DNA of 64,000 nt, taken from NCBI RefSeq assembly GCF_002214185.1, contig NZ_CP022161.1:9059486-9123485 (forward strand), in the 5' to 3' direction. The notes under the pieces were generated by a model. That model worked only from the letters and a program-made list of their open reading frames with translations, was not told where the DNA came from and made no database searches. This document shows, in pieces, positions 10,981 to 33,917 of this stretch. The position numbers and the translations under genes were made by a program. This DNA is from Streptomyces capitiformicae. GTDB lineage: Bacteria > Actinomycetota > Actinomycetes > Streptomycetales > Streptomycetaceae. Every line of letters starts with the position of its first letter. Position 1 is the first letter of the stretch.

Positions 10981-11046
10981 GGTTCTCCTCATGGGGGATG
11001 CCGGTGGGGGACGCGCGGGTGGGGGGTGGTGCACAGACCCTGCGGT

Positions 11047-11079
11047 ACCGCCCCGCTCGGGGGAGCCGAGCGGGGCGGT
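11047..11079. terminator. Strong hairpin upstream of the protease gene
   Basis: Fourteen-base perfect arms (ACCGCCCCGCTCGG and its complement) close a five-base loop. It lies after the LAL regulator (stop 11335, minus strand) and 67 bases upstream of the protease start, so it probably ends LAL transcription before it enters the protease gene. The rest of 10981-11334 holds only the protease promoter region and a 25-bp duplication. Confidence 0.7.
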
Positions 11080-11293
11080 GGGCCGGTCCGTGTGCCCTGG
11101 CGTGCGGCACGGCACAAAAACTAAGAGCGGGAGTGATCCCGTCCCAATGGGGGATCCCCCTAGGGGAGTTGGGGAGGGAAAACCCTCGATGACCCGGTCG
11201 GCGGTTTGAGCCTAGGCTGGAGCTGCAAGGTCGCTTCGCGTGCGCCGGCCCTCATGGGAGGGGGCGCGCCGGTCCCCGGGAGGGGTTCGAAAC

Positions 11294-11343
11294 GCCGGTC
11301 CCGGGGAGGTCAGTTCGTGCCGGTCCCGGAAAGGTCAGTTCGT
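11294..11343. repeat. 25-bp tandem duplication at the LAL regulator stop codon
   Basis: Two adjacent 25-base units, each reading GCCGGTCCCGG, two variable bases, then AGGTCAGTTCGT, differ at two positions. The second unit covers the last codons and stop of the regulator, so the end of the gene has been copied once just downstream. Confidence 0.8.
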
Positions 11344-14190
11344 ACGGTGTCCCGCCGCCAGACGCACGATGTCCACACGCGACCGGATTCCCAGCTTCCG
11401 GTAGACCCGTGTGAGCGTCGCCTCGACCGTCTTCACGCTGATGTAGAGCCGACCGGCGATCTCCCGGTTGGTCGCCCCCTCCATGACCAGCTCGGCGACC
11501 TGACGCTCCGTCGTCGCGAGCACGGCGAGGGCGTCGAGGGCCGACGGGGCGAGGACCACCTGCTGCGGGGGCGCCGGGGCGACCGTGGCCTGCTCCGCCT
11601 GCCGCAGCCACGGCAGGGCGCGGCAGCGGCGGAACAGCCGGGCCGCCTCCTCGTACGACGTCGGCGTGGGCGCGGACGTCCCCCCTGGCCGGGCGCCGAA
11701 GGCCTGCGGAAGGGTGCGCAGGGAAGCGAGGGCGTACGCGGCCCGGGCCTCCTCCAGGCCATAGCCCAGCTTGGCCAGCCGGTCCTGCGCCGAGGTCAAC
11801 TGACGTACCGCCGCGTCCTGCTCACCGCGCGCCGCGCGCACCAACGCCTCCGCCCGGTCGAGGACGGCGAGCACGCTCTCGCGGCCGAGCCGCAGCGCCT
11901 GCTGCCGGGTGACGTCGATGACGTCCTGCGCCTCGGCCGACTCCCCGACCCGGACCAGGGCTTCGGCGAGATCGCCGTGCCAGCGCCCGCGCGCGGGGTC
12001 GGTGACCCCGAGCCCCTCCTCCAACTCCCGTACCCGGCGCAGCGACTGCACGGTGCCGGGCGCGTCCCCCGCCACCAGCTGGGCGTGCCCGAGGGCGCCC
12101 AGGGCGCGGGAGAGGTACATCAGGTCGCCGTCCTGCTCCGCGTGCTCGGCAGCCTCGCGGGCGAGGGCCTGGGCCCGCTCCACATCGCCGCCGGCGGCCT
12201 CCGCGAGCGAGGTGAACATGGCGGAGGCACCTTCGCCGATACCGGAGTCCTGAGCCAGCCGCCGACCCTCGCGGGCGAGGTCGAGGGCGCGGCCGCAGTG
12301 CCCGGCGCGCAACTCGGTCTCGGCGAGGAAGCGTACGTAGTGCACCTCGCTCTCGACCATGCCGCGCTGACGCACCTCACGCAGCAGCGAGGTGATCGTC
12401 GCCCGGGCCTCGCCGAGTTGGTCGCTCATCATCAGCCAGCGGAACCGGGTCGCGCCCGCCCCGTTGTGGTGGCACGCGAGCTGCGGGTCCTGCGGCTCCT
12501 TGAGCGCGCGTTTGATGGTCGCCGGCGCGTCCGGGTGCCCCATCAGGGTCTCGGCCTGTGCCTGGAAGGCGAGCGCGAGCAGTTCGGTGCGCCGGTCGGC
12601 GGCCCGCGCGGCCAGTTCCGCGGCGCGTGCGGCCTCCTCGCGGCCCTCGGCGAAGTCACCGTCGAGGACCAGCGCGCGCCAGGCGAGCTGGTAGCGGACC
12701 AGGGCGAGCAGCCGCGGGTCGTCGCCCGCGTCGGCGAGGACCTGCGGATAGACGGCGTCGACCTCGGTGAGGGACTGCCCGGCCGCGTCGATCACCACCA
12801 TCCAGGCCCGCACGCGTTCGGCGGGCTCGGTGGCCCGGCTCAGCACCTCGCGGGCGATGTCCCGCCCGAGGTCGTTCTCCCCGGCGGTCAGCGCGTCCTC
12901 GGCGGCCTGCAGCCGCCGCTCGTCCGGGCCGGGCGACACGCCCGCCGGGGTGTGCCGGGCCGAGAGCAGCCCCAGCTCGGCGGCGACCGAGGGCGCGCCC
13001 CGGTCCCGGGCCACAGCGGCGGCCTCACCGAGCCGGGCGGCGACCTCCGGGTCGGCGCCGGTGGTGGACAAAGCCAGATGCCGGGCCCGCTCGATGGGGT
13101 CGCCGGCGGCGGTGGACAGCGCGGCGTGGGCCGCCCGCCGCTCCTGGGCGGTGGCCTCGGCGTACAGCGCGGCCGACACCAGGGGGTGCGCGAACCGCAC
13201 GCCCGGGCCCTCCCGCTCCGGCGCCAGCAGCCCGAGCGCGGCGGCCTGCGCCGTCTCCGCCTCGGCGTTCTCCCGTCCGGCGGCGTGCAGCAGGGCCAGC
13301 GTGGGCCGGGCACCGGCGCTGGCGACGAGCAGGGTGCGGCGGGCCTCCGCCGAGAGCATGTCCAGCCGGTTCAGGACCAGGGTCCGCAGCGAGGTCGGCA
13401 CCGGCAGCGGCTCCCCCGGCCGCGGCGGGGTCGGGCTGTCGGCCAGGGCACGGCCCAGCTCCAGCGCGAACAGCGGGTTGCCGCCGCTGGTGCGGTGGAT
13501 GTCCCGCACGGTCGAGCGGGGCAGACCGGTGTAACCACGGTTCTCGAGCAGCTCGGCGACATGCGTCCGGGACAGCGGAGCGACTCTGAGGGCAAGAGTG
13601 CCGGGAGGGGACGCGCGTAGATATCGGTCCTGCTCATGGCCGTGCGGATCGGTGGACGTACGTACGGCGCACAGCATGCGCACCGGCATCTCCCCGAGCC
13701 GCCGCGCGGCGAACCCGAGCAGCTCGACACTGGCCGGATCCAGCCACTGGAGGTCGTCCGCGACGATCAGCACCGGACCCTTGGCGGCAAGGGTCCGCAG
13801 GGTCGACAGCACCGCGAGCCGCAGGGCGAGTCCGTCCCGCTGAAGGGTCGACTCACCGCGACCGGTGAGCGCGGACTCCAGAGCCGTGCGCTGCGGGGCG
13901 GGCAACTGATCGGACACCTCGTCCACGACCAGCCCGAGCAGGTCGGTCAGCGCGAGGAACGGCAAGTGGGACTCGGACTCGGTGGCCGAACAGCGCAGCA
14001 CGGTGCGGGCCGTTTCCCCGTACTCCGCGGCCAGAGCGCGCAGCACGGTCGATTTACCGATCCCGGCGGAACCGTGCACCAGCACGCTCCCACCACGCGC
14101 AAGCTGCTCACGCGCTGCCGTGAACAGCTCCTCCCTGCCTATGACCAGGTCGGGGCGGGGTCTCCCAGGCTCCATGAAGTCCCGTCGCAC
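11335..14190 (-). CDS. LAL-family (large ATP-binding) LuxR transcriptional regulator
   Basis: 951 residues from a GTG at 14190 with GGGGAG ten bases upstream; an internal ATG at 14175 has a weaker site. A Walker A motif (GSAGIGKST, about 40-48) and Walker B (VLIVADDLQWLD) form an N-terminal AAA-type ATPase. Several hundred residues of TPR-like helices follow. A C-terminal LuxR helix-turn-helix contains TERQVAELVMEGATNREIA and VKTVEATLTRVYRKLGI. LAL proteins are usually pathway activators of secondary metabolism or sugar use. None of the adjacent genes clearly identifies its target; the nearest candidates are the protease downstream and the GAF-LuxR gene upstream. Confidence 0.93.
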   Translation of the reverse strand: MRRDFMEPGRPRPDLVIGREELFTAAREQLARGGSVLVHGSAGIGKSTVLRALAAEYGETARTVLRCSATESESHLPFLALTDLLGLVVDEVSDQLPAPQRTALESALTGRGESTLQRDGLALRLAVLSTLRTLAAKGPVLIVADDLQWLDPASVELLGFAARRLGEMPVRMLCAVRTSTDPHGHEQDRYLRASPPGTLALRVAPLSRTHVAELLENRGYTGLPRSTVRDIHRTSGGNPLFALELGRALADSPTPPRPGEPLPVPTSLRTLVLNRLDMLSAEARRTLLVASAGARPTLALLHAAGRENAEAETAQAAALGLLAPEREGPGVRFAHPLVSAALYAEATAQERRAAHAALSTAAGDPIERARHLALSTTGADPEVAARLGEAAAVARDRGAPSVAAELGLLSARHTPAGVSPGPDERRLQAAEDALTAGENDLGRDIAREVLSRATEPAERVRAWMVVIDAAGQSLTEVDAVYPQVLADAGDDPRLLALVRYQLAWRALVLDGDFAEGREEAARAAELAARAADRRTELLALAFQAQAETLMGHPDAPATIKRALKEPQDPQLACHHNGAGATRFRWLMMSDQLGEARATITSLLREVRQRGMVESEVHYVRFLAETELRAGHCGRALDLAREGRRLAQDSGIGEGASAMFTSLAEAAGGDVERAQALAREAAEHAEQDGDLMYLSRALGALGHAQLVAGDAPGTVQSLRRVRELEEGLGVTDPARGRWHGDLAEALVRVGESAEAQDVIDVTRQQALRLGRESVLAVLDRAEALVRAARGEQDAAVRQLTSAQDRLAKLGYGLEEARAAYALASLRTLPQAFGARPGGTSAPTPTSYEEAARLFRRCRALPWLRQAEQATVAPAPPQQVVLAPSALDALAVLATTERQVAELVMEGATNREIAGRLYISVKTVEATLTRVYRKLGIRSRVDIVRLAAGHRTN

Positions 14191-19720: not shown

Positions 19721-20707
19721 ATGTTCGGCAAGCTGTTCGGCAGGGGTGCGGAGAGACCGGTGGCAGATCCGCACGCCCTTCCCGCCCAGCACAGACACAA
19801 GAACGGGATGTACACGCTGCGCGCGCTCGGGGACACGCGGGTGCTCGCGCTGGTGGAGGCGGCCGACGCGGGTGACTGGGAGGCGGTCAAGGCGGCGCTG
19901 GCCCCCTTCGACCTCGGCCGTGACCATCGGGTCCTGGACGAAATCGCCGATCTGGACGGTGTGCAGGACTGGATCGGCCGGGCTGTCGAGGAGGACAAGG
20001 AGCACCGGGCGACGGCCCTGCTCATATCCGGGACGCGTCAGATCAGCTGGGGCTGGGAGGCACGCACCGCTGAGCGTGCCGTGAACGTCACGCAGAACCA
20101 GTGGCGGCTCTTCCACGAGCGGCTCCGCATCGCCGAGGAGCAGTTGTTCGAGGCCGCCGAGTTGCGGCCGGAGTGGGTCACGCCGTGGCGCCGCCTCCTC
20201 ACCTCCGGTCGCGGCATGTCGCTGGGGCCCGCCGTCAACGAGACCCGACGCGACGCCGCCCTGCGCCGCGACCCGCTGGACCTGGAGACCCATCTGGAGT
20301 GGGTGTCGCAGTTGCAGCCGCGTTGGGGCGGCGAGCCGGGGCAGGCCCTGGCATTCGCCCAGGACGCGGCCGCCCGCGCCCCGGAGGGACAGCGCCTCGG
20401 CTGTGTGATCGCGATGGCGTACATCGAGGAGTGGGTCGAGTCGGAGCGCGGGGACTACCTCGAAACCCACGAGATCCAGGCCCAGTTGCGGGAGGCGGCG
20501 GACCACAGCATCCTCCACCCCGCCTACGTGCGGCGGCCGGGCTGGCAGCAGGACTTCAACACGTTCGCCATGGCTTTGTCGCTGGCCGACGAGCGCCACA
20601 CGGTCCGGCGCGTCTTCCAGGCGCTGGACGGCGCCTACACCAAGTGGCCCTGGACCTACTTCGCGGAACCCGAGAAGCAGTTCGCGCGCGGGCACCGCCG
20701 CGCCTGA
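19721..20707 (+). CDS. Helical hypothetical protein, first gene of the Hsp90/TPR group
   Basis: 328 residues, mostly predicted helical, starting MFGKLFGRGAE after AGGGGAGGGCGC. It has repeated Trp- and Leu-rich helices (VEAADAGDWEAVKAALAPF, AEEQLFEAAELRPEWVTPW, RRVFQALDGAYTKWPWTYF) that recall TPR or ankyrin-like solenoids. No catalytic motif and no signal peptide are visible, so it should be cytoplasmic. The Hsp90 gene follows 101 bases downstream in the same direction, so it may be a partner or client adaptor of that chaperone. Confidence 0.75.
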   Translation: MFGKLFGRGAERPVADPHALPAQHRHKNGMYTLRALGDTRVLALVEAADAGDWEAVKAALAPFDLGRDHRVLDEIADLDGVQDWIGRAVEEDKEHRATALLISGTRQISWGWEARTAERAVNVTQNQWRLFHERLRIAEEQLFEAAELRPEWVTPWRRLLTSGRGMSLGPAVNETRRDAALRRDPLDLETHLEWVSQLQPRWGGEPGQALAFAQDAAARAPEGQRLGCVIAMAYIEEWVESERGDYLETHEIQAQLREAADHSILHPAYVRRPGWQQDFNTFAMALSLADERHTVRRVFQALDGAYTKWPWTYFAEPEKQFARGHRRA

Positions 20708-20808
20708 GCCCGCCCCCTGAGCGCACGCCGCCCTCCGGTCCCGATCGCCACCCGCCACCCGCCACCCGTGACCTGCCACCTGTCACCCCTCCCATCCCGG
20801 ACTGCCCG

Positions 20809-22698
20809 ATGACTCTGCCCGACACCGCCGCGAACCCGGCCGCCGCCGACCGCACCTTCCAGGTCGATCTGCGCGGCCTCGTCGATCTCCTCTCCCACCA
20901 CCTCTACTCCAGCCCCCGCGTCTATCTGCGCGAACTCATGCAGAACGCGGTGGACGCCCTGACCGCCCGGCACGCCCTCGAACAGGCCGCGCCCGCCGCT
21001 GCCCCCGCCTTCGGCGTCCGCCTGTACGCCGACGGTTTTGTCGTACGCGTCGAGGACGACGGCGTCGGTCTCACCGAGGCCGACGTACACAGCTTCCTCG
21101 CGACCATCGGCCGCAGCAGCAAGCGCGCCGACAGGATCGCCGAGCAACGCGGCGACTTCATCGGCCAGTTCGGCATCGGCCTGCTCTCCTGCTTCCTGGT
21201 CGCGGACGAGATCCACGTCCTGAGCCGCTCCGCCCGCACCCCCGACGCACCCGCCGTCGAGTGGCGGGGACGCGGCGACGGCAGCTACACCGTCCGCACC
21301 CTGCCCGCCTCCGCCCGCCCCCGGCCCGGCACCACCGTCACGCTGACACCGCGCGCCGACGCGGGCGAATGGACGCGCCCGGCGCAGGTGCACGCCCTGG
21401 CCCGCCACTTCGGCTCCCTGCTGCGCCACCCGCTGACCTTCGACGACGGCACAGGCAGCACGAACGGCACAGACGGCACAGGCAGCACCGGAGGTACGGG
21501 CGTATCCGTCAACCCCGAGCCCGCCCCCTGGGCGCGTACGTACCCCACACCGGGAGCCCGGTCCCGCGCCCTGGCCGCGTACGGCGAGGAGGTCTTCGGG
21601 TTCAAGCCGCTGGACACCATCGAACTGGACCTGCCGGCCGTAGGCCTGAAGGGCATCGCCTGCGTGCTGCCCGAGACGGTGCCGGCCGGGCGCCGCCACG
21701 GCCACCGCGTGCACGTCAAGGGCATGCTGCTGTCCGAGCAGGCCGAGGAGATCCTGCCCGAGTGGGCGTTCTTCGTCCGCTGCGTCGTCGACGCCGAGAG
21801 CCTGCGCCCCACGGCGTCCCGCGAGTCCCTGTACGAGGACGACACCCTCGCCGCCGTCCGCGACGCCCTCGCCGAGCGGCTGCGCGCCTGGATCGCCCGG
21901 GCGGCGGCCAGTGACCCGGACCTCCTTGCCCGCTTCCTCCAGGCCCACCACCTGGCCGTGAAGTCGCTCGCCGTGCACGACGACGAGATCCTGCGGATGC
22001 TGCTGCCCTGGCTGCCGTTCGAGACCACCGACGGACACACCACCCTCGACGAGTTCGCGCGCACCCACCGCACGGTGCTCGTGACGTCGAGCGTGGAGGA
22101 GTTCCGGCAGGTCGCGGCGATCGCGTCGGCCGCCGGGCTCGGCGTCGTCAACGGCGGCTACACCTACGACCGTGAACTGGTCCACCGGCTGCCCGAGATC
22201 AGGCCCGAGGCCACCGTCGCCGACCTCGACCCGGAGACCCTCACCGCCCACCTCGACCCCGTCGACCGGGAGACGGAACTCGCCGCCGCGGCCTACCTCG
22301 CCCAGGCCCGCGACGCCCTCGCCGTCTTCGACTGCGATGTCGCGCTGCGCGCCTTCCAGCCGGCCTCCGCCCCCGCCCTCCTCGTCGACAGCCGCGAGGC
22401 CCGGCACGAGCGCACCCGCTCCCAGCTCGCCCGCGAGCAGGAGGGCGGCCTGTGGGGCGACATCCTCGGCGCCCTGCGCCAGGAGGCCCCGAGGGCCCAG
22501 CTGATCCTCAACCAGCTCAACCCGCTGGTCCGCACCGCCGTCACCATCGACGAGCCCGAGCTGGCCCGCACCAGCGCCGAAGCCCTCTACGGGCAGGCCG
22601 CGATGCTGTCCCGGCGCCCGCTCAGGCCCGCCGAATCGAGTCTCATCAACCGCTCCTTCCTCGACCTCCTCGCCCACGCCCTCCGCAAGGACAGCTGA
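20809..22698 (+). CDS. Hsp90-family chaperone ATPase (HtpG-related)
   Basis: 629 residues, near the 624 of E. coli HtpG. The GHKL ATP-binding motifs are in order: Glu42 and Asn46 (YLRELMQNAVDAL), VEDDGVGLTE (81-90), ATIGRSSK, and GQFGIGLLSCFLVAD (119-133). The middle domain carries HVKGMLLSEQ and EWAFFVRCVVDAESLRPTAS, the counterpart of the HtpG segment ending in NVSRE. The C-terminal third is divergent, and a Gly/Thr-rich insertion lies near residue 220. Two bases separate it from the TPR-like gene, a coupled arrangement. It is probably a specialised Hsp90 rather than the housekeeping one. Confidence 0.9.
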   Translation: MTLPDTAANPAAADRTFQVDLRGLVDLLSHHLYSSPRVYLRELMQNAVDALTARHALEQAAPAAAPAFGVRLYADGFVVRVEDDGVGLTEADVHSFLATIGRSSKRADRIAEQRGDFIGQFGIGLLSCFLVADEIHVLSRSARTPDAPAVEWRGRGDGSYTVRTLPASARPRPGTTVTLTPRADAGEWTRPAQVHALARHFGSLLRHPLTFDDGTGSTNGTDGTGSTGGTGVSVNPEPAPWARTYPTPGARSRALAAYGEEVFGFKPLDTIELDLPAVGLKGIACVLPETVPAGRRHGHRVHVKGMLLSEQAEEILPEWAFFVRCVVDAESLRPTASRESLYEDDTLAAVRDALAERLRAWIARAAASDPDLLARFLQAHHLAVKSLAVHDDEILRMLLPWLPFETTDGHTTLDEFARTHRTVLVTSSVEEFRQVAAIASAAGLGVVNGGYTYDRELVHRLPEIRPEATVADLDPETLTAHLDPVDRETELAAAAYLAQARDALAVFDCDVALRAFQPASAPALLVDSREARHERTRSQLAREQEGGLWGDILGALRQEAPRAQLILNQLNPLVRTAVTIDEPELARTSAEALYGQAAMLSRRPLRPAESSLINRSFLDLLAHALRKDS

Positions 22699-22700
22699 CG

Positions 22701-25640
22701 ATGCCCACCGCACCCCATCCCCAGAACACGGACGAGCTGTACCAGGCGCTCCAGGAGAACGACCAGCGTCCCTACGGCCGCGCCCGCACCGTCACCGCCG
22801 AGGAACTCGTCGACGCCGCCGAGCAGTTCGCGGAGCCCGTTCCGCTCGTCCGCGCCCTCCTCGAACTCCAGGAGGCGTACACCTACGGCTCCGAACCCCG
22901 GAAGTCGCCCGTCGTCTTCGCCCGCCTGCTCACCCTCTTCGACGAGCAGCCCGACATCTTCGACGAGCGTCTGCGCCACATGCTGTTCTGGCGGTTCAAA
23001 TGGGTGTCCAACGCCCTGCGCCAGCTGCCCGAGATACCGCTGGCCAGCATGCGCCAGTGGCTGACGGAGATGCGCGACCGGTACGAGAAGGCCGGCCTCG
23101 GCCTCCAGCCCTACTACGGGCAGGCGTACCAGCTCGCCGCCCATGTGGGCGAGGACATCACCCCCGCCTACGAGCTGTGGGCGGGCCGCGCCCGCACCAG
23201 GCTCAGCGACTGCGAGGCCTGCGAGATCTGCGAGCGCGCCCTCTACCACCTCACCGCGGGCGACGACGAGCGGGCGCTGCGCACCTGGGAGCCCGTCCTG
23301 GCCGGGAAGGAGTCCTGCCAGGAGGAGCCGGCCCGCTCCCTCTCGTACGCGCTGCTGCCCCTGCTGCGCACCGGCCGCCCCGACCGGGCACGCGACGTGC
23401 ACCTCGCCGGCTACCGCGGCTGCCGCCGCAACCCCTCGATGCCCGGGGAGGTCGGCCGCCACCTGGAGTTCTGCGCGCTGACCGGCAACGAGGCACGCGG
23501 CCTGGAACTGCTCGCCGAGAACCGGAGCCTGTTCGACGAGGTGGACTCGCCGCTGGGCCTGCTCGACTTCCTCACCGGCGTGGAGGTCCTCCTCCAGCGT
23601 GTCGAGTCCCTCGGCCACGGCGAACTGCCCGCCGCCGGATACGCGGGCCGCACCTGGACGGCGGTCGGCCTGCGCGCCGAGGTGGGGGGCCGCGCCGACG
23701 ACCTCGCCGCCCGCTTCGACGCCCGCAACGGCACCACGGCCCACACCGACCGCCGCAGGGCCCGCCTCGACCGGGAGCCGCTCCTGGACGCGCTGGAACT
23801 GACCCTGCGCCCCCGCAGCCTCGACGACGTGGCCCCGGCCGCTCCGGTTGCCGCACCCGCATCCCGTACGGCCGCCACCGTCCCCGACGCCCTGCCCGAA
23901 CTCATACTCCAGGCACGGGAGTTGGAGGAGCAGGGGCACCCGGACGCACCGGCCTGCTGGGCGCGGCTGCGCACACTCGCCGCCGCCCGCGACTACACCC
24001 ACCCCGACGACTCGGCAGTGGGCCCGCTCGTCCAGCTGCGCGCGGACCTGCTGGCCGACGAGGCGGGCCGGGCGGGCCAGAGGGACGAGTTCGCCGACGC
24101 CGCGGCCCTCCACGAGGAGGCGGCGGGCCTGTACGAGGACGCCGGCATGCCGGGTGACGCGGCGCTCGCCCGCGCCTGCGCGCTGCTCGCCGCCGCCGAG
24201 ATCCCCGCGGACGGCGCGGACGGAGCCGAGGCGAAGGCCGCCGTGCTGACCGCCACCCACGCGTCCATGGTCCGCCTGCAGGAGCAGACGCCCGGCCTCG
24301 CTCCGTACCAGGAGGCCCGCCTGCTGCGGCTGCGGGCGACCGCGCTCGGCCTGCGCCTGCAGACGACGGGGAGCGAGGAGCACGTCGCGCCCGTCTTCGC
24401 GGAGGTGGACCTGCTGCACGCGTTCGCCACCCGGCACGACGTCGTCGGGCAGATCTCCGGCGCCCTGCAGCTGCGGGCCAGCACCTACGCCATCTCCGGC
24501 GACCTGCCCGCCGCGGTCGCCGAGATCGACGCCCTCCTCGACCGGCTGACGGCGCACGGCCCCGCCTGGCACCTGCCCCGCACGCTCGGACTGCGTGGCC
24601 GGCTCCGGCTCGGCCTCCAGGACGCGCAGGCCGCCCACGCGGACCTCACCGAGGGCCTGCGCCTGGCCGCCGACTGGCCGGCCGACGCGGTCGACACCAG
24701 CCGCCTCCACGGTGATCTGGCCCAGGCCTGCATGCACCTGGGCCGCCCCGACGAAGCACTGCGGCACCTCACGCGCTCGGCGGAGCTGGAGCTTCGCCGC
24801 GGCAGCCGGATCGACGCGTTCTGCACGTACAGCAACGCGGCCCAGCTCAGCCTCGACCTCGGCCGCGTGGAGGACTGCATCGCCCTGCTCGACTCCCTGC
24901 TGGCTGAACCGGACGTCGCCGCCGGAGAGCTGGACGACCGGCTCGCCGCCCAGCTGCGCCTGACCCGCGCCCGCGCGCTGCACGCGGGGGAGGACCTCAA
25001 GGCCGCCACGGCGGAGTTCGTCGCCCTCGCCGCCGAGTCGGCTGGCTGGGACGACGACCCGGGCAGCCACGCCATGATCGCCGCGGAGACGGCCGTACTC
25101 CTCGGTGAGTCCGGCGAGTTCGGCCGGGCCCGCGAGGTGGCGGACCAGGCACTCGCCGCCCACGCCCGGGCCCCGCGCTACGAGCTGCTCAGCAGCTGCC
25201 TGCGCGAACTCGCCCGGCTCCAGGCCCAGCAGCAGGGCCGCGACGGCCTGGCCGACGCCCGCGCCTTCCTCGCCGACGCCGCCCGGATCGCCGACGAGGC
25301 CCGCGCCGCCGCATACGAGGCCCAAGGCCGGCCCCTGGACTCCGCCCTGGCCTACGAACACGGCCGGGTCAACGCCTACGCGGGCGAGTACGAGGACGCC
25401 CTGGCCGCGCTGGACAAGGCCCTCGCCCTGCTCGGCGAGCCGGGGCCGGACGCGGACCACGCCGGCGAGTGGGCCGAGAGCGTCCGCCTCGCGGGCGCCG
25501 TCGAGGGCATCTACCTGGAACGCCCCGCCCCCGCCCTCACCCGCCTCGACACGGCGATCACCCGCCTGACCGCCTTGGGCCACACCGAGGAGACCAAGCC
25601 ACTGACCTCCCTGGCGGCCCAGCTGCGCGACGAGGAGTGA
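22701..25640 (+). CDS. Large TPR-like repeat protein, likely Hsp90 partner
   Basis: 979 residues, ATG two bases after the Hsp90 stop. The N-terminal part is helical with several Cys (CEACEICERALYHL). From about residue 400 onward many 34-residue-like helical pairs follow, with the usual small/Ala spacing (AYEHGRVNAYAGEYEDALAAL, LHGDLAQACMHLGRPDEALRHL, AADFALHEEAAGLYEDAGMP-like pairs). There is no membrane segment or signal. Eukaryotic Hsp90 is served by TPR co-chaperones. The tight coupling here suggests a similar scaffold, though this is inference and the protein does not end the Hsp90 with a visible MEEVD motif. Confidence 0.8.
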   Translation: MPTAPHPQNTDELYQALQENDQRPYGRARTVTAEELVDAAEQFAEPVPLVRALLELQEAYTYGSEPRKSPVVFARLLTLFDEQPDIFDERLRHMLFWRFKWVSNALRQLPEIPLASMRQWLTEMRDRYEKAGLGLQPYYGQAYQLAAHVGEDITPAYELWAGRARTRLSDCEACEICERALYHLTAGDDERALRTWEPVLAGKESCQEEPARSLSYALLPLLRTGRPDRARDVHLAGYRGCRRNPSMPGEVGRHLEFCALTGNEARGLELLAENRSLFDEVDSPLGLLDFLTGVEVLLQRVESLGHGELPAAGYAGRTWTAVGLRAEVGGRADDLAARFDARNGTTAHTDRRRARLDREPLLDALELTLRPRSLDDVAPAAPVAAPASRTAATVPDALPELILQARELEEQGHPDAPACWARLRTLAAARDYTHPDDSAVGPLVQLRADLLADEAGRAGQRDEFADAAALHEEAAGLYEDAGMPGDAALARACALLAAAEIPADGADGAEAKAAVLTATHASMVRLQEQTPGLAPYQEARLLRLRATALGLRLQTTGSEEHVAPVFAEVDLLHAFATRHDVVGQISGALQLRASTYAISGDLPAAVAEIDALLDRLTAHGPAWHLPRTLGLRGRLRLGLQDAQAAHADLTEGLRLAADWPADAVDTSRLHGDLAQACMHLGRPDEALRHLTRSAELELRRGSRIDAFCTYSNAAQLSLDLGRVEDCIALLDSLLAEPDVAAGELDDRLAAQLRLTRARALHAGEDLKAATAEFVALAAESAGWDDDPGSHAMIAAETAVLLGESGEFGRAREVADQALAAHARAPRYELLSSCLRELARLQAQQQGRDGLADARAFLADAARIADEARAAAYEAQGRPLDSALAYEHGRVNAYAGEYEDALAALDKALALLGEPGPDADHAGEWAESVRLAGAVEGIYLERPAPALTRLDTAITRLTALGHTEETKPLTSLAAQLRDEE

Positions 25641-25646
25641 CGCGGC

Positions 25647-26117
25647 GTGGAGTCGACGGCCATGGCTACGGGCGATGCTCTCTGGCTCAGCCTCGCGCTG
25701 TACGGCGACAACGACATTCCTGCGGCGTATTTCGACGCGGCCTGCGCTGTGGTGGAGACGGCCCATGACGACTCGATGTGGCGCGTCTGGTGGTCGCACG
25801 CCGAGCAGCACGACCTGGTCATCGAGATCGCATACACCTTGCGGGCGGAGCGCAGTCGCGTCACTGCCCGACAGGGACGGGCCTGGGTCTCGTTCCGCAG
25901 GAACGGCTCGCGCTTTCGAAGGTTGAACAAGGGCGGTCTCGCCCATCTTGCTGCCACTGATCTGGAAGCAGTCCTCACCCTCGTATCCACGTCTCTGAAC
26001 CTGCCCACGCCACCCCGAGTACCTCGTGCGGCACATGCGACCTCGCCGACGGAGCGAGAGGAGGCGGCTCGCGCAAGGCTGGAGGTACTGCGACAACGGC
26101 ACCGCAAGCGCCCCTGA
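25647..26117 (+). CDS. Small hypothetical protein, last gene of the Hsp90/TPR group
   Basis: 156 residues from a GTG six bases after the TPR gene stop, with GAGGAG seven to eight bases upstream inside that gene's end. It contains ALWLSLALYGDNDIPAAYF, DDSMWRVWWSHAEQHDLVIE and a basic C-terminus (RARLEVLRQRHRKRP). I do not recognise it. GC content and codon bias are lower than in the three genes before it. It ends just before the 21-bp repeat at the edge of the insertion. Confidence 0.65.
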   Translation: MESTAMATGDALWLSLALYGDNDIPAAYFDAACAVVETAHDDSMWRVWWSHAEQHDLVIEIAYTLRAERSRVTARQGRAWVSFRRNGSRFRRLNKGGLAHLAATDLEAVLTLVSTSLNLPTPPRVPRAAHATSPTEREEAARARLEVLRQRHRKRP

Positions 26118-26158: not shown

Positions 26159-26723
26159 TGTGGCGCGGCCCTGGCCTGGGGAACGCGCGCCAATCCGCGC
26201 TGACCTGCAGAAATGACCCTCACCTGTTCTCATCGCTTCGCGGTGTTTTCCGGGTGTGTGTGCCCTGGACGTGCCCTGCGAGGAGGCGGGTGAGGGGTGC
26301 TTTGCGGTCGATGCGGCATGGGTGTCTGCGGGTGGTGTCCTCTTTGTCGGCGCGGCGCTTCCGCTGGGCCGTGAGTTGCCGAGCGGTACGTGCCGCTCGA
26401 TATGTTCCAGAGCCCGCATGTTCGCCGCCCGGGGCGTCACCCTCGGCTACTTGTCACTTCGTGGCAGACCCCTATGGCCTACTGGTCCCCCAGGCGCGGG
26501 TATTCCCCGTGGTGAGGGCTGTCCGCGCACGCGAGGCGGGAGGGGCAGGGCTGACTGCTCCCGCGGGTGGGAGAGCGGGTGAAGGCTGCCAAGTGCTGTG
26601 CTATAGGGGTGAGTTAGGGGAGTTGCCTGCCTCGTGATGCGGGGTAGCTTCGGGCGACAGGACTGTGCCGGCATCTGGGCGCGTTCTGTATCCGCTCTGT
26701 GCCCCACGAAGGTGAAGGTCGAG
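26159..26723. other. Left arm of the element, no confident gene
   Basis: This 565-base stretch precedes the acylase. Open frames exist in all phases but none has a start signal or a recognisable motif. The last 100 bases include the acylase promoter region and GAAGGTGAAGG, which serves as its ribosome site. The first part probably held other element genes, now decayed. Confidence 0.5.
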
Positions 26724-29102
26724 ATGAGAGCGCGCATAAAAGTACTGCTGACCGCGACCGCCGTCTCGGTACCCATAGTGGTGCCGATGCCGGCCACGGC
26801 GGAGAACCCGGAGAATTCCTACGCGGTACCGGGTCTCGAGAGGCCGGTCTCCATGACGATCGACAAATGGGGTGTGCCCCACATCTCCGCGTCCAGTACC
26901 GGTGACCTCTTCCAGGCGCAGGGCTTCAGCGCCGCGCGGGACCGGCTCTTCCAGATGGACACCTGGCGCCGGAGCGGGCTCGGTGAGCTCAGCGAGGTGC
27001 TCGGCAAGAGCTACGTGGAACAGGACCGTGCCTCGCGGCTGTTCCTCTACCGCGGCGATATGAGCAAGGAGTGGGCGAGCTACGGCCCGCAGGCCAAGGA
27101 GGCGGCGACCCGCTTCGCAGCCGGTATCAACGCCTACGTCGACTGGCTGGAGAAGCACCCGGACTCCATGCCGGAGGAGTTCCGCAAGCTCGGCTACAAG
27201 CCCGCGCGCTGGAAGCCGCAGGACCTGGTGCGGATCCGCGCCCATGGCCTCGTCAGCAATCTCACCAAGGAGGTCAGCCGGGCGAAGCTCATGTGCCTCG
27301 GGGGACCGGACGCGAGCAAGTACCTGTCGAAGCTGGAGCCGAAGCACGAGCCCGAGGTGCCGGACGGCCTTGACCTGTGCTCGCTCCCGGACGACGTCCT
27401 GGACACCTATAACCTTGCTACGGCGACAGTCACCTTCAGCAACGGCAAGATGGAGAAGGAGCCGGAGGGGGTCCAGGCGCTGCGAGAGGCCACAGGCGGC
27501 AGCAACGCCTGGGTCGTTTCGCCGGAGCGCACCTCAACCGGCAGGCCCATCCTCGCGGGTGACCCGCACCGGGTGAACTACTCGTTGCCAGGGAACCGGT
27601 ACATCACCCACCTCGCCGCCCCCGGTCTGAACATCATCGGCGCGGGTGAGCCGTGGAACCCCGGCGTCAGCATGGGGCACAACGGGAACGTCTCGTTCGC
27701 TCTGACCAACCTGGCCGCCGACCAGTCGGACCTCTACGTATACGACCTGAAGCCGGGTGACCCCACCAAGTACCGCTACCGCGGCGGCTGGGTCTCGATG
27801 AAGACCATCGAGGAAGACATTCCGGTGGCTGGCGAAGGCGCGCGGACGTCGTTGCTCTCCTTCACCAACCACGGTCCGGTCATCAAGGTGGACAAGGCGA
27901 AGAACAAGGCGTACGCGGTGCGCACGGTCTGGACGCAGCCGGGCACCTCAGCCTATCTGGGCAGCCTCAACTTCCAGCAGGCCGAAAGCTTTGACGAGTT
28001 CTCCGCGGCCATGCGCAAGTGGAAGGCTCCGGGATCCAACCTCCTCTACGCGGACAAGAAGGGGGATATCGGCTGGGTGCCCGGCGCACTCTCGCCGAAG
28101 CGCGAGGGCAAGGGCTACGACGGACTGCTCCCCGTGCCCGGCGACGGACGCTATGAGTGGAGCGGCTTCAGCAACAGCGGTGACTTCCCCAGCGTGCTCA
28201 ATCCGAAGGCCGGTTTCGTCGCCACCGCCAACGAGTACAACTTCCCGGCCGGTTACAAGGCTCCCGGGTTCGAGTGGGCGGAGCGCTACCGCAAGGACCG
28301 GATCGACGACGTGCTGTCCAAGCAGTCGGGTACGTCCATCAAGGACACCACGGATCTGCAGAACGATGTGAAGTCGCTGGCGGTCACAGAGATCCTGCCG
28401 TATCTGAAGGGCCTGGAATCCTCGGACCCGACGACGAGGAAGGCGCTGGACCTGCTGCGCGGCTACGACGGTGTCGCGAGCAAGGACTCCGCGGAGGCTG
28501 TCCTTTTCGAGACCTGGATCATTAACGTGCTCTACCCGGCGTGGGCTGAGGTGATGCTGCCGAAGGAGGCCGCAGAGTATCTGACCCAGGGCAGGCTCAT
28601 CGAGGACTTCCGCGTCGTGACCGACTCCTTCGCCGAGCCCGAGGAGTGGTTCGGCAAGGGCGGTGCCCAAGCGAGGGACAAGCTGATCCTCGATACCCTG
28701 CCCAAGGCGTATGACGAGGTGAGCGGGTTCCTCGGCACCGACCCGGGCAGGTGGAGCTGGGGCGCGGCGCAGATCCACTTTTTCCAGCACCCGCTCGGCG
28801 GCCCGAACGTCGGTCCCATCCCGATGGACGGCACCTACCACACGGTCCGCCTGTCGGTGTACTTTCCGAGCGTCTTCCCCCGGATCCAGGTCGTGGGGCC
28901 GACCTTCAAGATGGCGCTCGATGTCGGCTCCTGGGACAACTCGCGCGCCATCAACGCGCCAGGCCAGTCCGGGGACGAGCACAGCCCGCACTACGACGAC
29001 CTCGCGGAGAAGTGGGGCGCGGGTGAGTACTTCCCACTGCTCTACAGCGAGTCGGCGATCGATAAGAACGCGGAAACCAAGTTCACTCTCGACCCGGCGT
29101 AA
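26724..29102 (+). CDS. Secreted penicillin/acyl-homoserine-lactone acylase family protein (Ntn hydrolase)
   Basis: 792 residues. A Sec-type signal peptide (MRARIKVLLTATAVSV to PATA, residues 1-26) leads to an alpha-subunit region with the usual start WGVPHISASSTGDLFQAQGF. Self-cleavage is expected at Gly259-Ser260 (TGGSNAWVV), which exposes the catalytic Ser of the beta subunit. MGHNGNVSFALTN and DPHRVNY are conserved beta-chain motifs. The length matches aculeacin A acylase and the Streptomyces AhlM-type acylases, which cleave side-chain amides of echinocandins, penicillin V or acyl-homoserine lactones. The substrate cannot be chosen from sequence. It sits inside a mobile element and stands out by lower GC. 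Confidence 0.9.
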   Translation: MRARIKVLLTATAVSVPIVVPMPATAENPENSYAVPGLERPVSMTIDKWGVPHISASSTGDLFQAQGFSAARDRLFQMDTWRRSGLGELSEVLGKSYVEQDRASRLFLYRGDMSKEWASYGPQAKEAATRFAAGINAYVDWLEKHPDSMPEEFRKLGYKPARWKPQDLVRIRAHGLVSNLTKEVSRAKLMCLGGPDASKYLSKLEPKHEPEVPDGLDLCSLPDDVLDTYNLATATVTFSNGKMEKEPEGVQALREATGGSNAWVVSPERTSTGRPILAGDPHRVNYSLPGNRYITHLAAPGLNIIGAGEPWNPGVSMGHNGNVSFALTNLAADQSDLYVYDLKPGDPTKYRYRGGWVSMKTIEEDIPVAGEGARTSLLSFTNHGPVIKVDKAKNKAYAVRTVWTQPGTSAYLGSLNFQQAESFDEFSAAMRKWKAPGSNLLYADKKGDIGWVPGALSPKREGKGYDGLLPVPGDGRYEWSGFSNSGDFPSVLNPKAGFVATANEYNFPAGYKAPGFEWAERYRKDRIDDVLSKQSGTSIKDTTDLQNDVKSLAVTEILPYLKGLESSDPTTRKALDLLRGYDGVASKDSAEAVLFETWIINVLYPAWAEVMLPKEAAEYLTQGRLIEDFRVVTDSFAEPEEWFGKGGAQARDKLILDTLPKAYDEVSGFLGTDPGRWSWGAAQIHFFQHPLGGPNVGPIPMDGTYHTVRLSVYFPSVFPRIQVVGPTFKMALDVGSWDNSRAINAPGQSGDEHSPHYDDLAEKWGAGEYFPLLYSESAIDKNAETKFTLDPA

Positions 29103-30067: not shown

Positions 30068-30298
30068 ACGACCGAGCCCTTCGACCTCGACGAGCCCCCG
30101 GCGCACGCGCTCGTGGCTCGCGGGGTCATGGAGGCGGCCGAGCTGGACGCGGTGGACGTCGGCCCGTTCGGCAACACGGTGGAGGGTGGTGCCGACGCCG
30201 TGCTCACCGCCGTGGACGCCCTGCTGCGCGAGACCCTGGAGTCCGGCGCCACCCGTATCTCGCTCCAGGTCAATGTGATCGGGGAGGGTGGCGAGTGA
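30047..30298 (+). CDS. MTH1187/UPF0045-like (thiamine-binding) family protein
   Basis: 83 residues: RVEFTTEPFDL, VGPFGNTVEG, DALLRETLESGATRISLQVNVIGE. This resembles the small ferredoxin-like MTH1187/YkoF family, some members of which bind thiamine. The role in purine breakdown is unknown, but in streptomycetes a similar gene precedes uricase-type loci. Its GTG is part of the 21-bp repeat, so integration has replaced its promoter with element sequence. A weak or altered expression level is likely. The stop overlaps the next start by four bases. Confidence 0.6.
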   Translation: MRLRVEFTTEPFDLDEPPAHALVARGVMEAAELDAVDVGPFGNTVEGGADAVLTAVDALLRETLESGATRISLQVNVIGEGGE

Positions 30299-30672
30299 CC
30301 GGCACCGGCGACGACCCCTTCGTCGCGGCCGTCAAGCCGCTGGTCGACGCCATGGGCGGGGTCATGCTGCCGCCGGACGAGGCCGGCCCCGACGACGTCG
30401 TGCTCTCCTGGGAGGGCACCGACGTCGTCGCCGTACGTCTGCCGCAGCTCGCCGAGTCGCTGGACCACATCCTCGTCGCGCTGGAACGCAAGCACGGCAA
30501 GCCCCTCGCCGACCTCGACCGCAAGGCCAAGCAGGAGGTCGTACGGATGCTGGAGGCGCGCGGCGCCTTCTCGGTACGGCATGGTGTGGAGACCGTCGCG
30601 AGCGCGCTCGGCGTCAGCCGCTTCACCGTCTACAACTACCTGAACAGGGAAAACGCGGCCAAGGGTAATTGA
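30295..30672 (+). CDS. Helix-turn-helix protein of the uricase locus
   Basis: 125 residues, start GTG inside the stop of the previous gene. A C-terminal helix-turn-helix (VETVASALGVSRFTVYNYLN) follows an N-terminal domain with LPQLAESLDHILVALERKHGKPLADLDRKA. It resembles small actinobacterial regulators beside urate-degradation genes. It may act with an IclR-type repressor at the palindrome at 30719-30733, but the window has no such IclR gene, so this remains inference. Confidence 0.7.
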   Translation: MTGTGDDPFVAAVKPLVDAMGGVMLPPDEAGPDDVVLSWEGTDVVAVRLPQLAESLDHILVALERKHGKPLADLDRKAKQEVVRMLEARGAFSVRHGVETVASALGVSRFTVYNYLNRENAAKGN

Positions 30673-30718
30673 ACGGCCGGTGTCGCCGGGCCGGGCGGGT
30701 CGCCGTAACCGCGATTTT

Positions 30719-30733
30719 TCAACAAACTGTTGA
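30719..30733. promoter_or_regulatory. Palindromic operator overlapping the urate operon promoter
   Basis: TCAACA-AAC-TGTTGA is a perfect six-base inverted repeat and runs into TTGACG (30730-30735), a good -35. TTAGCT follows after 18 bases, and the OHCU decarboxylase GTG lies six bases later, so the message is probably leaderless. The symmetry resembles IclR/AllR-type sites that control purine catabolism in Streptomyces. Confidence 0.65.
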
Positions 30734-30765
30734 CGTGATGTTGTCGTAGGGCGTTAGCTGGTCCC

Positions 30766-31284
30766 GTGACTTCGAGTTTCCCGACGCCGGGCCTCGCCCG
30801 GTTCAACGCCCTGGAGGAACGTGCGGGCGTCGCGGCGCTCCACGAGGTGTGCGCCTCCGTGGAGTGGGGGCGCAGGCTGCTCGCGGGACGGCCGTACGCC
30901 ACGGTCGACGACCTCCTCGCCGCCAGTGACGCCGCCATGGCCGGGCTGACCGCGGGCGACCTGGAGGAGGCCATGGCGGCGCACCCGCCGATCGGCCGCC
31001 CGAAGTCCGGCGATCCGACGTCGGCCCGGGAGCAGCGGGGCATGGCGGACGCCTCCGAGGAGCTCAGGGCCGAGATGCTCGAACTCAACCTGGCCTACCA
31101 GGAGAAGTTCGGCCACGTCTTCCTGATCTGCGCCACCGGCCGCTCCGGCGAGCAGATGCGCGACGCGATCGAGGAACGGATCGGCAACCCGCCCGAGCGG
31201 GAACGCGAGATCGTGCGGACCGAGCTGGGAAAGATCAACCGCATCCGGCTCACCCGACTCCTCGGACAGGACACACCCGTATGA
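30766..31284 (+). CDS. 2-oxo-4-hydroxy-4-carboxy-5-ureidoimidazoline (OHCU) decarboxylase
   Basis: 172 residues. It catalyses the third step of urate to (S)-allantoin conversion, stereospecific decarboxylation of OHCU. Family blocks are FNALEERAGVAALHEVCASVEW, the HPPIGRPKSGDP loop with the catalytic His, SREQRG-type region, NLAYQEKFGHVFLICATGRS, and ERIGNPPEREREIVRTEL. There is no ribosome site before the GTG, in line with a leaderless start behind the operator. It overlaps the HIU hydrolase gene by four bases. Confidence 0.93.
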   Translation: MTSSFPTPGLARFNALEERAGVAALHEVCASVEWGRRLLAGRPYATVDDLLAASDAAMAGLTAGDLEEAMAAHPPIGRPKSGDPTSAREQRGMADASEELRAEMLELNLAYQEKFGHVFLICATGRSGEQMRDAIEERIGNPPEREREIVRTELGKINRIRLTRLLGQDTPV

Positions 31285-31631
31285 GCACCAGCAGCACCGC
31301 CTCCGTGTCCACACACATCCTGGACACCAGCATCGGCCGCCCGGCCCCGGGCGTGCCCGTCTCGCTGTCGGCACGCGGAGGCGCCGGGTGGACGGAACTC
31401 GGCACCTCCGCCACGGACACCGACGGACGCTGCAAGGACCTCCCGGCGCTGCCGGAGGGGACCACCCACGTACGGCTCGGCTTCGACACCGAGGCGTACC
31501 TCTCCGCGCACCGCGACAGCGGAGCGTTCTTCCCGGAGGTGACGGTCACCTTCGCCGTCGTACCGGGCGAGCACTATCACGTACCGCTGCTGCTCAACCC
31601 GTTCGGCTACTCCGTATACCGAGGGAGCTAG
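31281..31631 (+). CDS. 5-Hydroxyisourate hydrolase (transthyretin-like)
   Basis: 116 residues, second enzyme after uricase: hydrolyses 5-hydroxyisourate to OHCU. Family signatures are STHILDTSIGRPAPGVPVSL (N-terminal His), SATDTDGRC, and the C-terminal YHVPLLLNPFGYSVYRGS that ends with the diagnostic YRGS. ATG overlaps the previous stop. Two bases separate it from the uricase gene, so the enzymes are made together. Confidence 0.95.
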   Translation: MSTSSTASVSTHILDTSIGRPAPGVPVSLSARGGAGWTELGTSATDTDGRCKDLPALPEGTTHVRLGFDTEAYLSAHRDSGAFFPEVTVTFAVVPGEHYHVPLLLNPFGYSVYRGS

Positions 31632-31633
31632 CA

Positions 31634-32527
31634 ATGCCCGTCCTTGGACCGAACCAGTACGGCAAGGCCGAGAACCGCGTCGTCCGGATCACGCGCGACG
31701 GCGCCACCCACCACATCAAGGACCTGAATGTGTCCGTGTCGCTCTCCGGCGACATGGACGAGGTCCACTACTCCGGCTCGAACGCGAACGTCCTGCCGAC
31801 GGACACCACCAAGAACACGGTGTACGCCTTCGCCAAGGAGAAGGGCATCGAGTCCGCCGAGCAGTTCGGCATCCACCTCGCCCGCCACTTCGTGACCTCG
31901 CAGGAGCCCATCCACCGGGCCCGCATCCGGATCGAGGAGTACGCCTGGGAGCGCATCGAGCACGCAGGCGAGGGCGAGCACTCCTTCGTCCGCAAGGGCC
32001 AGGAGACCCGGCTCGCCCAGATCACGTACGACGGCTCGTCGTGGGAGGTCGTCTCCGGCCTCAAGGACCTCACCGTCATGAACTCGACCAACTCCGAGTT
32101 CTGGGGCTACGTCAAGGACAAGTACACGACCCTCCCCGAGGCGTACGACCGCATCCTCGCCACCGAGGTCTCCGGCCGCTGGCGCTTCAACTGGACCGAC
32201 GACGAGCAGGCGATGCCCGACTGGGAGGCGTCCTACGCACAGGTGAGGAAGCACATGCTCGCCGCCTTCACGGAGACGTACTCGCTGTCGCTCCAGCAGA
32301 CCCTCTACGCCATGGGCGCACGGATCATCGACAACAGCGGCGAGATCGACGAGGTCCGCTTCTCGCTCCCGAACAAGCACCACTTCCTGGTGGACCTCGC
32401 CTCGTTCGGCCTCAAGAACGACAACGAGGTGTACTTCGCCGCCGACCGCCCCTACGGCCTGATCGAGGCCACCGTCCTGCGGGACGGGTGCGAAGCGAAG
32501 ATCCCGGGTGACCTCACCAACCTCTGA
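31634..32527 (+). CDS. Urate oxidase (uricase)
   Basis: 297 residues. Converts urate, O2 and water to 5-hydroxyisourate and H2O2 without a cofactor. Motifs are GPNQYGKAENRVVRI, the catalytic Lys-Thr pair in LPTDTTKNTVYAFAKEKGI, the LKDLTVMNSTNSEFWGYVKDKYTTL substrate region and the C-terminal SLPNKHHFLVDLASFGLKN. Ten bases separate its stop from the deaminase gene. The peroxide formed may be relevant to other oxidative enzymes, but no catalase is in the operon. Confidence 0.97.
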   Translation: MPVLGPNQYGKAENRVVRITRDGATHHIKDLNVSVSLSGDMDEVHYSGSNANVLPTDTTKNTVYAFAKEKGIESAEQFGIHLARHFVTSQEPIHRARIRIEEYAWERIEHAGEGEHSFVRKGQETRLAQITYDGSSWEVVSGLKDLTVMNSTNSEFWGYVKDKYTTLPEAYDRILATEVSGRWRFNWTDDEQAMPDWEASYAQVRKHMLAAFTETYSLSLQQTLYAMGARIIDNSGEIDEVRFSLPNKHHFLVDLASFGLKNDNEVYFAADRPYGLIEATVLRDGCEAKIPGDLTNL

Positions 32528-32537
32528 AGGACGAACC

Positions 32538-33917
32538 ATGGCAGCAACCCAGCGCATCGTCATCGAGAACGCGGCGATCGCGACCGTGGACGCGAAGGAC
32601 ACCGAGTACGCCTCGGGCCACGTGGTCGTCGCTGACCATGTGATCGAGTCGGTCGGAGAGGGCAAGGCCCCCGAGGGCCTGACGGACGTCGTACGCCGCA
32701 TCGACGCGACCGGACATCTGGTGACCCCCGGCCTGGTCAACACCCACCACCACTTCTACCAGTGGATCACCCGCGGCCTCGCCACGGACCACAACCTCTT
32801 CAACTGGCTCGTCGCCCTCTACCCGACCTGGGCGCGCATCGACGAGCGCATGACGTACGCGGCGGCCCAGGGCTCGCTCGGCATGATGGCCCGCGGCGGC
32901 GTGACGACCGCGATGGACCACCACTACGTCTTCCCGGAGGGCTCCGGCGACCTGTCGGGCTCGATCATCCGGGCGGCGCGCGAGATGGGCGTCCGCTTCA
33001 CCCTCGCCCGCGGCTCCATGGACCGCAGCGAGAAGGACGGCGGTCTGCCGCCGGACTTCGCCGTCGAGACCCTCGACGGCGCGCTCGCCGCCACCGAGGC
33101 GACCGTCCGCGAACACCACGACGCCTCCTTCGGCGCGATGACCCAGGTGGCCGTGGCCCCCTGTTCCCCGTTCTCCGTCTCCACCGAACTCCTGCGTGAG
33201 GGTGCCGAGTTGGCCCGCCGCCTCGGCGTACGGCTGCACACCCACGGCTCGGAGACGGTCGAGGAGGAGAAGTTCTGCCACGAGCTGTTCGGCATGGGCC
33301 CGACCGACTACTTCGAGTCGACCGGTTGGCTCGGCGAGGACGTGTGGATGGCGCACTGCGTCCACATGAACGACTCCGACATCGACGCCTTCGCCCGTAC
33401 GAGAACGGGGGTCGCCCACTGCCCGTCCTCCAACGCCCGTCTGGCGGCCGGTATCGCCCGCGTCCCGGACATGCTGGCGGCCGGCGTCCCGGTCGGCCTC
33501 GGCGTCGACGGCACCGCGTCGAACGAGTCGGGCGAACTCCACACCGAGCTGCGCAACGCGCTGCTCATCAACCGCCTCGGCGCCCACCGCGAAGCGGCCC
33601 TGGGCGCCCGCCAGGCGCTGCGCCTCGGCACCTACGGCGGCGCCCAGGTCCTGGGCCGGGCAGGCGAGATCGGCTCCCTGGAACCGGGCAAGCTCGCCGA
33701 CCTGGTGCTCTGGAAGCTCGACACCCTCGCCCACGCCTCCATCGCCGACCCGGTGACCGCCCTGGTCTTCGGCGCGGCGGCCCCCGTCACCGCCTCCTTC
33801 GTGAATGGTCGTCAGATCGTCGAGAACAACCGCCTGCTGCACGCCGACGAGGACGCGATCGCCCGCTCCACGCGGGACGAGGCCCGGCGTCTGGCGAGGA
33901 TCGCCGCCGAGGCCTGA
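32538..33917 (+). CDS. 8-Oxoguanine deaminase / amidohydrolase of purine catabolism
   Basis: 459 residues of the cytosine-deaminase-like amidohydrolase superfamily. Metal-binding HxH is in GLVNTHHHFYQW, further ligands in RLHTHGSE and MAHCVH, and the catalytic Asp in GLGVDGTASNE. Family members at urate loci remove the amino group of guanine or 8-oxoguanine and feed the product to xanthine dehydrogenase or uricase. AAGGAC precedes the ATG at about seven bases. It closes the operon. A modest hairpin lies 19 bases downstream. Confidence 0.88.
   Translation: MAATQRIVIENAAIATVDAKDTEYASGHVVVADHVIESVGEGKAPEGLTDVVRRIDATGHLVTPGLVNTHHHFYQWITRGLATDHNLFNWLVALYPTWARIDERMTYAAAQGSLGMMARGGVTTAMDHHYVFPEGSGDLSGSIIRAAREMGVRFTLARGSMDRSEKDGGLPPDFAVETLDGALAATEATVREHHDASFGAMTQVAVAPCSPFSVSTELLREGAELARRLGVRLHTHGSETVEEEKFCHELFGMGPTDYFESTGWLGEDVWMAHCVHMNDSDIDAFARTRTGVAHCPSSNARLAAGIARVPDMLAAGVPVGLGVDGTASNESGELHTELRNALLINRLGAHREAALGARQALRLGTYGGAQVLGRAGEIGSLEPGKLADLVLWKLDTLAHASIADPVTALVFGAAAPVTASFVNGRQIVENNRLLHADEDAIARSTRDEARRLARIAAEA

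Follow-up and report, generated by a model that had tools for sequence, protein, structure and literature searches.

A non-canonical bacterial Hsp90 and a linked candidate co-chaperone conserved across nine phyla

In eukaryotes, Hsp90 works with dedicated co-chaperones that carry tetratricopeptide repeats (TPRs), including Hop/Sti1, Cpr6, FKBP51, PP5 and Tom70, and it has immune sensors as clients in the systems that join SGT1/RAR1 with nucleotide-binding leucine-rich repeat proteins (NLRs). Here we describe a locus of Streptomyces capitiformicae at which the gene for a non-canonical bacterial Hsp90 is followed by one for a large repeat protein with a conserved N-terminal partner domain (PD). 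The locus was found in a stretch of 64,000 nucleotides (the window), which covers 9.06-9.12 Mb within a 10.99-Mb single-contig genome. We consider it somewhat more probable than an even chance that the Hsp90 and its partner, as a dedicated co-chaperone or adaptor, form a two-component machine. Such a machine would share with the eukaryotic systems a helical-repeat protein dedicated to an Hsp90 and, in the actinobacterial partners, a TPR solenoid. Unlike the eukaryotic chaperones, however, none of 163 Hsp90 C-termini of the type described here ends in a MEEVD-like tail, and therefore classical TPR/MEEVD docking is not expected; any contact would differ from the eukaryotic one, and the candidate for it is a different, N-terminal domain, the PD. 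The likeness to SGT1/RAR1-NLR systems, an Hsp90 linked to repeat proteins, is an analogy only, since Pfam reports no NB-ARC/STAND domain in the window partner.

For bacterial HtpG, DnaK and, in M. tuberculosis, DnaJ2 are reported as partners (PMC7926864, PMC10269695), and according to a paper from 2014 co-chaperones had yet to be identified for the species it names. In Chen et al. (2006; PMC1525184), bacterial HTPG falls into three lineages, groups A, B and C, and the two copies of Streptomyces coelicolor, of 638 and 615 aa, belong to different groups; the words operon and TPR do not appear in the main text.

The window Hsp90 (P0005, 629 aa; 20809-22698, + strand) belongs, judged by profile scores, to the NF010683/PRK14083 family and is not a canonical HtpG. 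It matches NF010683 ("HSP90 family protein") with 815 bits against a cut-off of 455, residues 13-628 covering positions 4-599 of the 604-position NCBIfam model, and reaches 182.8 bits, below the cut-off of 371, with the canonical HtpG model NF003555. Its ATG at 20809, 101 bases past the preceding gene, was placed by eye. The family shares with canonical HtpG (NF003555/PRK05218) the GHKL ATPase, a middle domain with the catalytic Arg and a homologous C-terminal domain, but forms a separate clade: in a tree of 85 rows, one branch with Shimodaira-Hasegawa (SH)-like support of 100 splits the 10 HtpGs of the other type from the 75 of the NF010683 type. The two types also differ in their linkage to the PD and occur independently within the genus, as described below. 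An NF010683 match over cut-off is also present in Corynebacterium glutamicum ATCC 13032.

Hsp90 superfamily members depend for catalysis on a Glu, an Asn, the DxGxG motif and a middle-domain Arg. In an alignment of 160 Hsp90 homologues, E42, N46, D83 and G85 are identical in all 159 rows with a letter there, and Arg338 of the middle domain is identical in 160 of 160; the ATPase site of the window protein is complete as far as sequence can tell, and the first-pass annotation had read these motifs correctly. It had also called the C-terminal third divergent. Profile-profile alignment with hhalign nevertheless joins this third to HtpG (547 columns, 100% probability, 21% identity), so that the word "divergent" holds, whereas "unrelated" would overstate the distance.

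The four open reading frames (ORFs) of the locus were confirmed at their coordinates, all on the + strand, and with them the two-base gap between the Hsp90 gene and the gene for the 979-aa partner (22701-25640, +), whose architecture was assigned from a profile and a predicted structure. Pfam finds one TPR motif above cut-off in this protein. Its predicted structure is almost entirely helical, with a mean pLDDT (predicted local distance difference test) of 91.7, and residues ~390-780 match known TPR solenoids when predicted folds are compared; the C-terminal part (residues ~396-979; 23886-25637, +) is a TPR solenoid in this model. The reading of the linked repeat protein as a TPR protein held, but the part conserved between loci is not the TPR array. 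That part is the PD, a profile match comprising the N-terminal ~340 residues (residues ~15-351; 22743-23753, +) and conserved across nine phyla. In most partners outside Actinobacteria the PD is the whole protein, and the long TPR array, missing from most fetched partners of other phyla, is an actinobacterial add-on.

The PD is helical at high pLDDT save for two short strands, and the listed fold matches mostly cover residues 390-782. No NCBIfam model matched it, Pfam TPR matches were weak (in one Listeria PD protein, TPR_8 lies marginally above cut-off, 26.1 versus 25.7), and no sequence relative from the PDB was present among the matches listed (60 of 141). Its conserved residues are K100, C171xxC174, C206, P210 and F339-D-x-R342-N343, of which Arg342 is invariant.

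Within Streptomyces, the linkage of the two genes was followed in a sample of 121 genomes. NF010683 gave 87 matches in 74 of them, relatives of the 979-aa protein were found in 76, and at 87 of 87 Hsp90 genes a partner match lies directly downstream on the same strand, the matched stretches being 2 to 89 bases apart. Nine partner matches, including several fragments, have no Hsp90 match nearby. The genome that contains the window has two pairs, one of a lineage that we call B (the window pair) and one of lineage A near 1.09 Mb, with partners that are 34% identical; no canonical htpG was found in it at E 1e-60. NF010683-type and canonical Hsp90s occur independently across the 121 genomes, with 30 carrying both types, 44 NF010683 only, 22 the canonical type only and 25 neither (Fisher p = 0.57). 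The geldanamycin-insensitive HtpG of S. hygroscopicus is reported to have the equivalents of yeast E88G and N92L (PMC3603443). By hand alignment, a canonical Streptomyces HtpG (L299) has both changes, whereas lineage A has D and L at these positions and lineage B has D and F, and therefore these data were not applied to the NF010683 family.

The linkage extends well beyond the genus. Two other actinobacterial families, sampled as 201 genomes around G235 and 80 around G257, gave 33 Hsp90 matches; at loci picked by the Hsp90 alone, a PD lies within 3 kb in 31 of the 32 taken, the 33rd match (G594, partial) being left out of this count. At the exception (L182 in G500), a 297-aa gene that looks TPR-like by eye stands at -4 (10476-11369) in place of the PD and is possibly a partner replacement. 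Among loci from genome contigs, again found with an Hsp90-only query, a PD is present within 3 kb at 75 of 80; at L222 the match, truncated where the contig stops, scores 34 bits, and 74 of 80 reach 50 bits. These loci come from Bacillota, Planctomycetota, Acidobacteriota, Myxococcota, Bacteroidota, Pseudomonadota, Deinococcota, Desulfobacterota and Actinomycetota. The sampling is uneven, because the 80 are those that rank highest among 573 relatives by similarity to a Paenibacillus Hsp90. A PD is missing at L234, L261, L262 and L284, and at L239, where the contig ends. When all Hsp90 loci are pooled, the PD is found at 155 of 162, a figure that includes loci selected by a TPR match (most of L093-L110), whereas the counts of 87/87, 31/32 and 75/80 do not; the sets overlap slightly, L289 and L169 being near-identical in the tree. 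At the 155 linked loci, the nearest partner follows the Hsp90 on the same strand 151 times, precedes it three times (L192, L193 and L270) and lies on the opposite strand once. Of the 163 Hsp90 genes called, 147 have the partner as their immediate downstream neighbour, and 92 of these pairs are spaced by -4 to +2 bases. Gene calls outside high-GC genomes were made by ORF length and are approximate.

The other Hsp90 type served as a control, and a PD was found at none of its 24 loci (E 0.1, 1.5-kb flanks), which comprise 20 that match NF010683 below cut-off and four above the HtpG cut-off; 10 of them were used in the tree. In the reverse direction, a search of 296 actinobacterial genomes, with at most seven candidates scored per genome, detected a PD in 10 of 10 genomes with an NF010683 Hsp90 and in two of 286 without. 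The first-pass annotation had named a lack of conserved co-occurrence in other genomes as one thing that would refute its proposal, and this refutation failed. Linkage is near-universal for the NF010683 type in the samples taken, and therefore a dedicated repeat-protein partner is well supported at the gene level. From the linkage of four families across actinobacteria that it proposed to look for, the Hsp90-partner pair survives; the core consists of two genes, and the pair reaches beyond the actinobacteria.

We asked how much of this pattern descent alone could explain. Related genomes share neighbourhoods, and the two proteins have congruent trees: for 75 loci, the Hsp90 tree has 31 splits whose SH-like support is 95 or more, and 23 of these are found again in the partner tree; the latter has 25 splits at that level, no conflict arises, and the distances correlate with r = 0.92, a value partly expected from common descent. 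Operon hitch-hiking without any functional connection is nonetheless scarcely credible to us, given that linkage spans nine phyla and includes loci with the partner upstream, that both families co-occur genome-wide, that few sampled loci are without the partner, and that the lineage B pair stays together while its flanks differ.

This last point is drawn from the contrasting behaviour of the two Streptomyces lineages. Lineage A is a fixed locus, with all 91 pairs of 14 loci sharing at least two flanking families. At L114, for example, genes for a RecG helicase, a Cons_hypoth95 methyltransferase, a cytidylyltransferase-like protein and YceD lie at one end, and a gene for a DAK2/FakA-like protein lies at the opposite end. 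Lineage B is a three-gene cassette at scattered sites, formed by the Hsp90, its partner and an upstream accessory gene, P0001; for 14 loci, none of 91 pairs share two flanking families and two share one. In the sister group of lineage B (six loci), none of 15 pairs share two families and three share one. All three genes are also present in plasmid records from S. chartreusis and S. globosus, where the P0001 relatives are 68% and 41% identical.

Differing genomic sites and two plasmid records with three-gene cassettes are what might be expected of an anti-phage or anti-mobile-element defence system, as the first-pass annotation had entertained, and P0005 matches the PADLOC model TmtA (E 2e-8, residues 19-140 of 629). 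Such a role is very unlikely in our view, and little supports it. The PADLOC-DB 2.0.0 matches (TmtA and a REase_II model) cover the shared ATPase domain only, with none for the partner proteins, and lineage A occupies its fixed chromosomal position between the RecG helicase and FakA-like genes. Viral contigs gave seven weak relatives, and of 20 matching phage records two extend over 80% of the query or more. One of these (L209) is an unverified fecal "Bacteriophage sp." scaffold with the whole pair, and the other is a Listeria phage scaffold of 1.6 kb; the two may be of bacterial origin. Records filed as plasmids from Listeria monocytogenes NCTC7974 and Paenibacillus cellulosilyticus also carry the Hsp90-partner pair. 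Two Listeria "plasmid" records in PLSDB, NZ_CP030101.1 and NZ_LR134399.1, are 2.9 Mb and 394 kb long; NZ_LR134399.1 includes such genes as queG, trmL and fri, and both records look like chromosome.

The main rival to a co-chaperone is an obligate client, a dedicated helical-repeat sensor or scaffold that does the work itself and is folded or kept competent by the Hsp90. We hold this to be unlikely, though it deserves to be taken seriously: a single Hsp90 can stand beside several PD proteins (two in Listeria, two in Deinococcales and two to four in Myroides), PDs are fused to varied C-termini, and genomes that have the partner seldom lack the Hsp90 (two of 12 genomes). Spacing of -4 to +2 in 92 of the 147 adjacent pairs, and a PD that in many phyla makes up the entire protein, are more like a subunit or co-chaperone, and two genomes still carry a partner gene although they lack the Hsp90; none of these points is decisive. 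Multiple PDs per Hsp90 and domain fusions also fit an adaptor family.

Some loci carry further genes or PDs. In Myroides (L266, L273 and L285), a gene of ~840 aa, which in L266 contains Sel1 repeats, overlaps the Hsp90 start by one base, and two to four PD genes follow; this arrangement is an enlarged version of the Hsp90-PD module. Four loci from ruminococcal and Oscillospiraceae bins (L254, L268, L272 and L282) have an extra PD on a protein of ~740-780 aa, which is fused to DUF4026 in L254, the one of the four subjected to a domain scan.

A second way of reading the module is as a redox or metal stress device, in which the CxxC and third Cys of the PD would coordinate zinc or act as a disulphide switch, and so activate the complex under oxidative or thiol stress. 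The cysteines are nearly invariant (C171 in 149/159, C174 in 146/162 and C206 in 148/162), and Cys509 of the Hsp90 is present in 148 of 160 homologues. However, no fourth ligand is as conserved as this triad (H234 is present in 108 of 162), and SigR-like promoter patterns were found at 1/23 lineage A loci versus 0.25 expected and at 4/20 lineage B loci versus 0.55, a slight excess from few cases on which we do not lean. We regard this reading as distinctly improbable, and it would refine rather than exclude the co-chaperone explanation. At L169, L171 and L289, the PDs are without all three conserved cysteines in the alignment and are still linked to an Hsp90; some cysteine losses may be alignment faults. 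Upstream of the same 23 A and 20 B loci, the best matches to HspR/HAIR and HrcA/CIRCE operators, which mark the actinobacterial heat-shock regulon, were no closer than in shuffled sequence.

We favour a co-chaperone. In the proposed machine, an Hsp90 with a complete ATPase site would be made together with a dedicated repeat protein. Since the pair stays together across phyla, one genome holds two paralogous pairs and the spacing is coupling-like, we propose that the PD binds the NF010683-type Hsp90 and acts as its co-chaperone or client adaptor. The module behind the PD, which is a TPR solenoid in most Actinobacteria, DUF4026 at the ruminococcal locus and absent from most partners of other phyla, would select or hold clients. 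In the Streptomyces branch of the window, a third helical protein, P0001, joined the pair, and the cassette is found at different genomic sites. The data show the sequence families, their linkage and co-occurrence, the two paralogous pairs, the conserved residues and a predicted fold, whereas binding, an effect on the ATPase, the adaptor role and the identity of clients are what we infer from this pattern.

Several observations weigh against this proposal. Adjacency indicates functional association, not binding, and is no proof of contact. Five Hsp90 loci have room for a PD and lack one, namely L182 together with L234, L261, L262 and L284, and two genomes (G171 and G204) contain PD genes and no NF010683 Hsp90 over cut-off. 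Relaxing the support threshold to 80 brings conflicts with the partner tree at 17 of 50 Hsp90 splits. Finally, the Cys triad of the PD and Cys509 of the Hsp90 are not lost together (p = 0.58), which also counts against the redox reading. PD genes without an adjoining NF010683 Hsp90 were seen at L131 (G171), at G204:C1:2666064-2667095 and at L208, on an Actinomyces oris plasmid, and are possible orphan or re-used partners.

The remaining two genes of the locus lie on either side of the pair. P0001 (328 aa; 19721-20707, +) lies before the Hsp90, as first described, and is predicted at low confidence to be all-helical, but it is linked in one Streptomyces sub-lineage only, its relatives preceding 28 of 87 genus Hsp90 genes. 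Some near relatives are named "DUF4034 domain-containing" in UniRef. One genome (G325; L194 and L195) has two P0001 relatives, 71% identical, located 0.40 and 7.88 Mb along a contig of 8.42 Mb, and no NF010683 Hsp90 was found in this genome. The small protein after the partner, P0003 (156 aa, GTG start; ORF at 25647-26117, +), is present in the same direction, yet among 300 loci the only match was the window's own copy. A four-gene system was accordingly rejected, with P0003 unconserved, P0001 upstream in the minority of cases given above and P0001 relatives present in G325 without the Hsp90.

Elsewhere in the window, a LAL-type regulator, a 951-aa AAA ATPase ending in a LuxR (GerE) C-terminus, lies at 11335-14190, a penicillin amidase family protein at 26712-29102 and an alpha-N-acetylglucosaminidase (NAGLU) at 34106-35998. 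The genes at 30295-33917, for an HTH_22 regulator, OHCU decarboxylase, HIUase, uricase and an amidohydrolase, probably form a uric-acid catabolism operon.

The HtpG lineage split and the NCBIfam name of the Hsp90 family are already known. A dedicated linked partner in bacteria appears to be new, and no description of the linked domain was found in the open-access literature. We rate as evenly balanced the wider proposal that nine or more phyla possess a second Hsp90 machine, in which the PD protein would be a bacterial co-chaperone independent of the eukaryotic MEEVD/TPR docking, and add-on TPR or other modules would broaden the client range. If true, this would provide a natural bacterial two-component system for studying Hsp90 regulation and the MEEVD-free origin of co-chaperone control. 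The PD and its invariant Arg342 are a first handle on a large uncharacterised family, whose members are found in antibiotic producers as well as in myxobacteria, planctomycetes and gut Clostridia.

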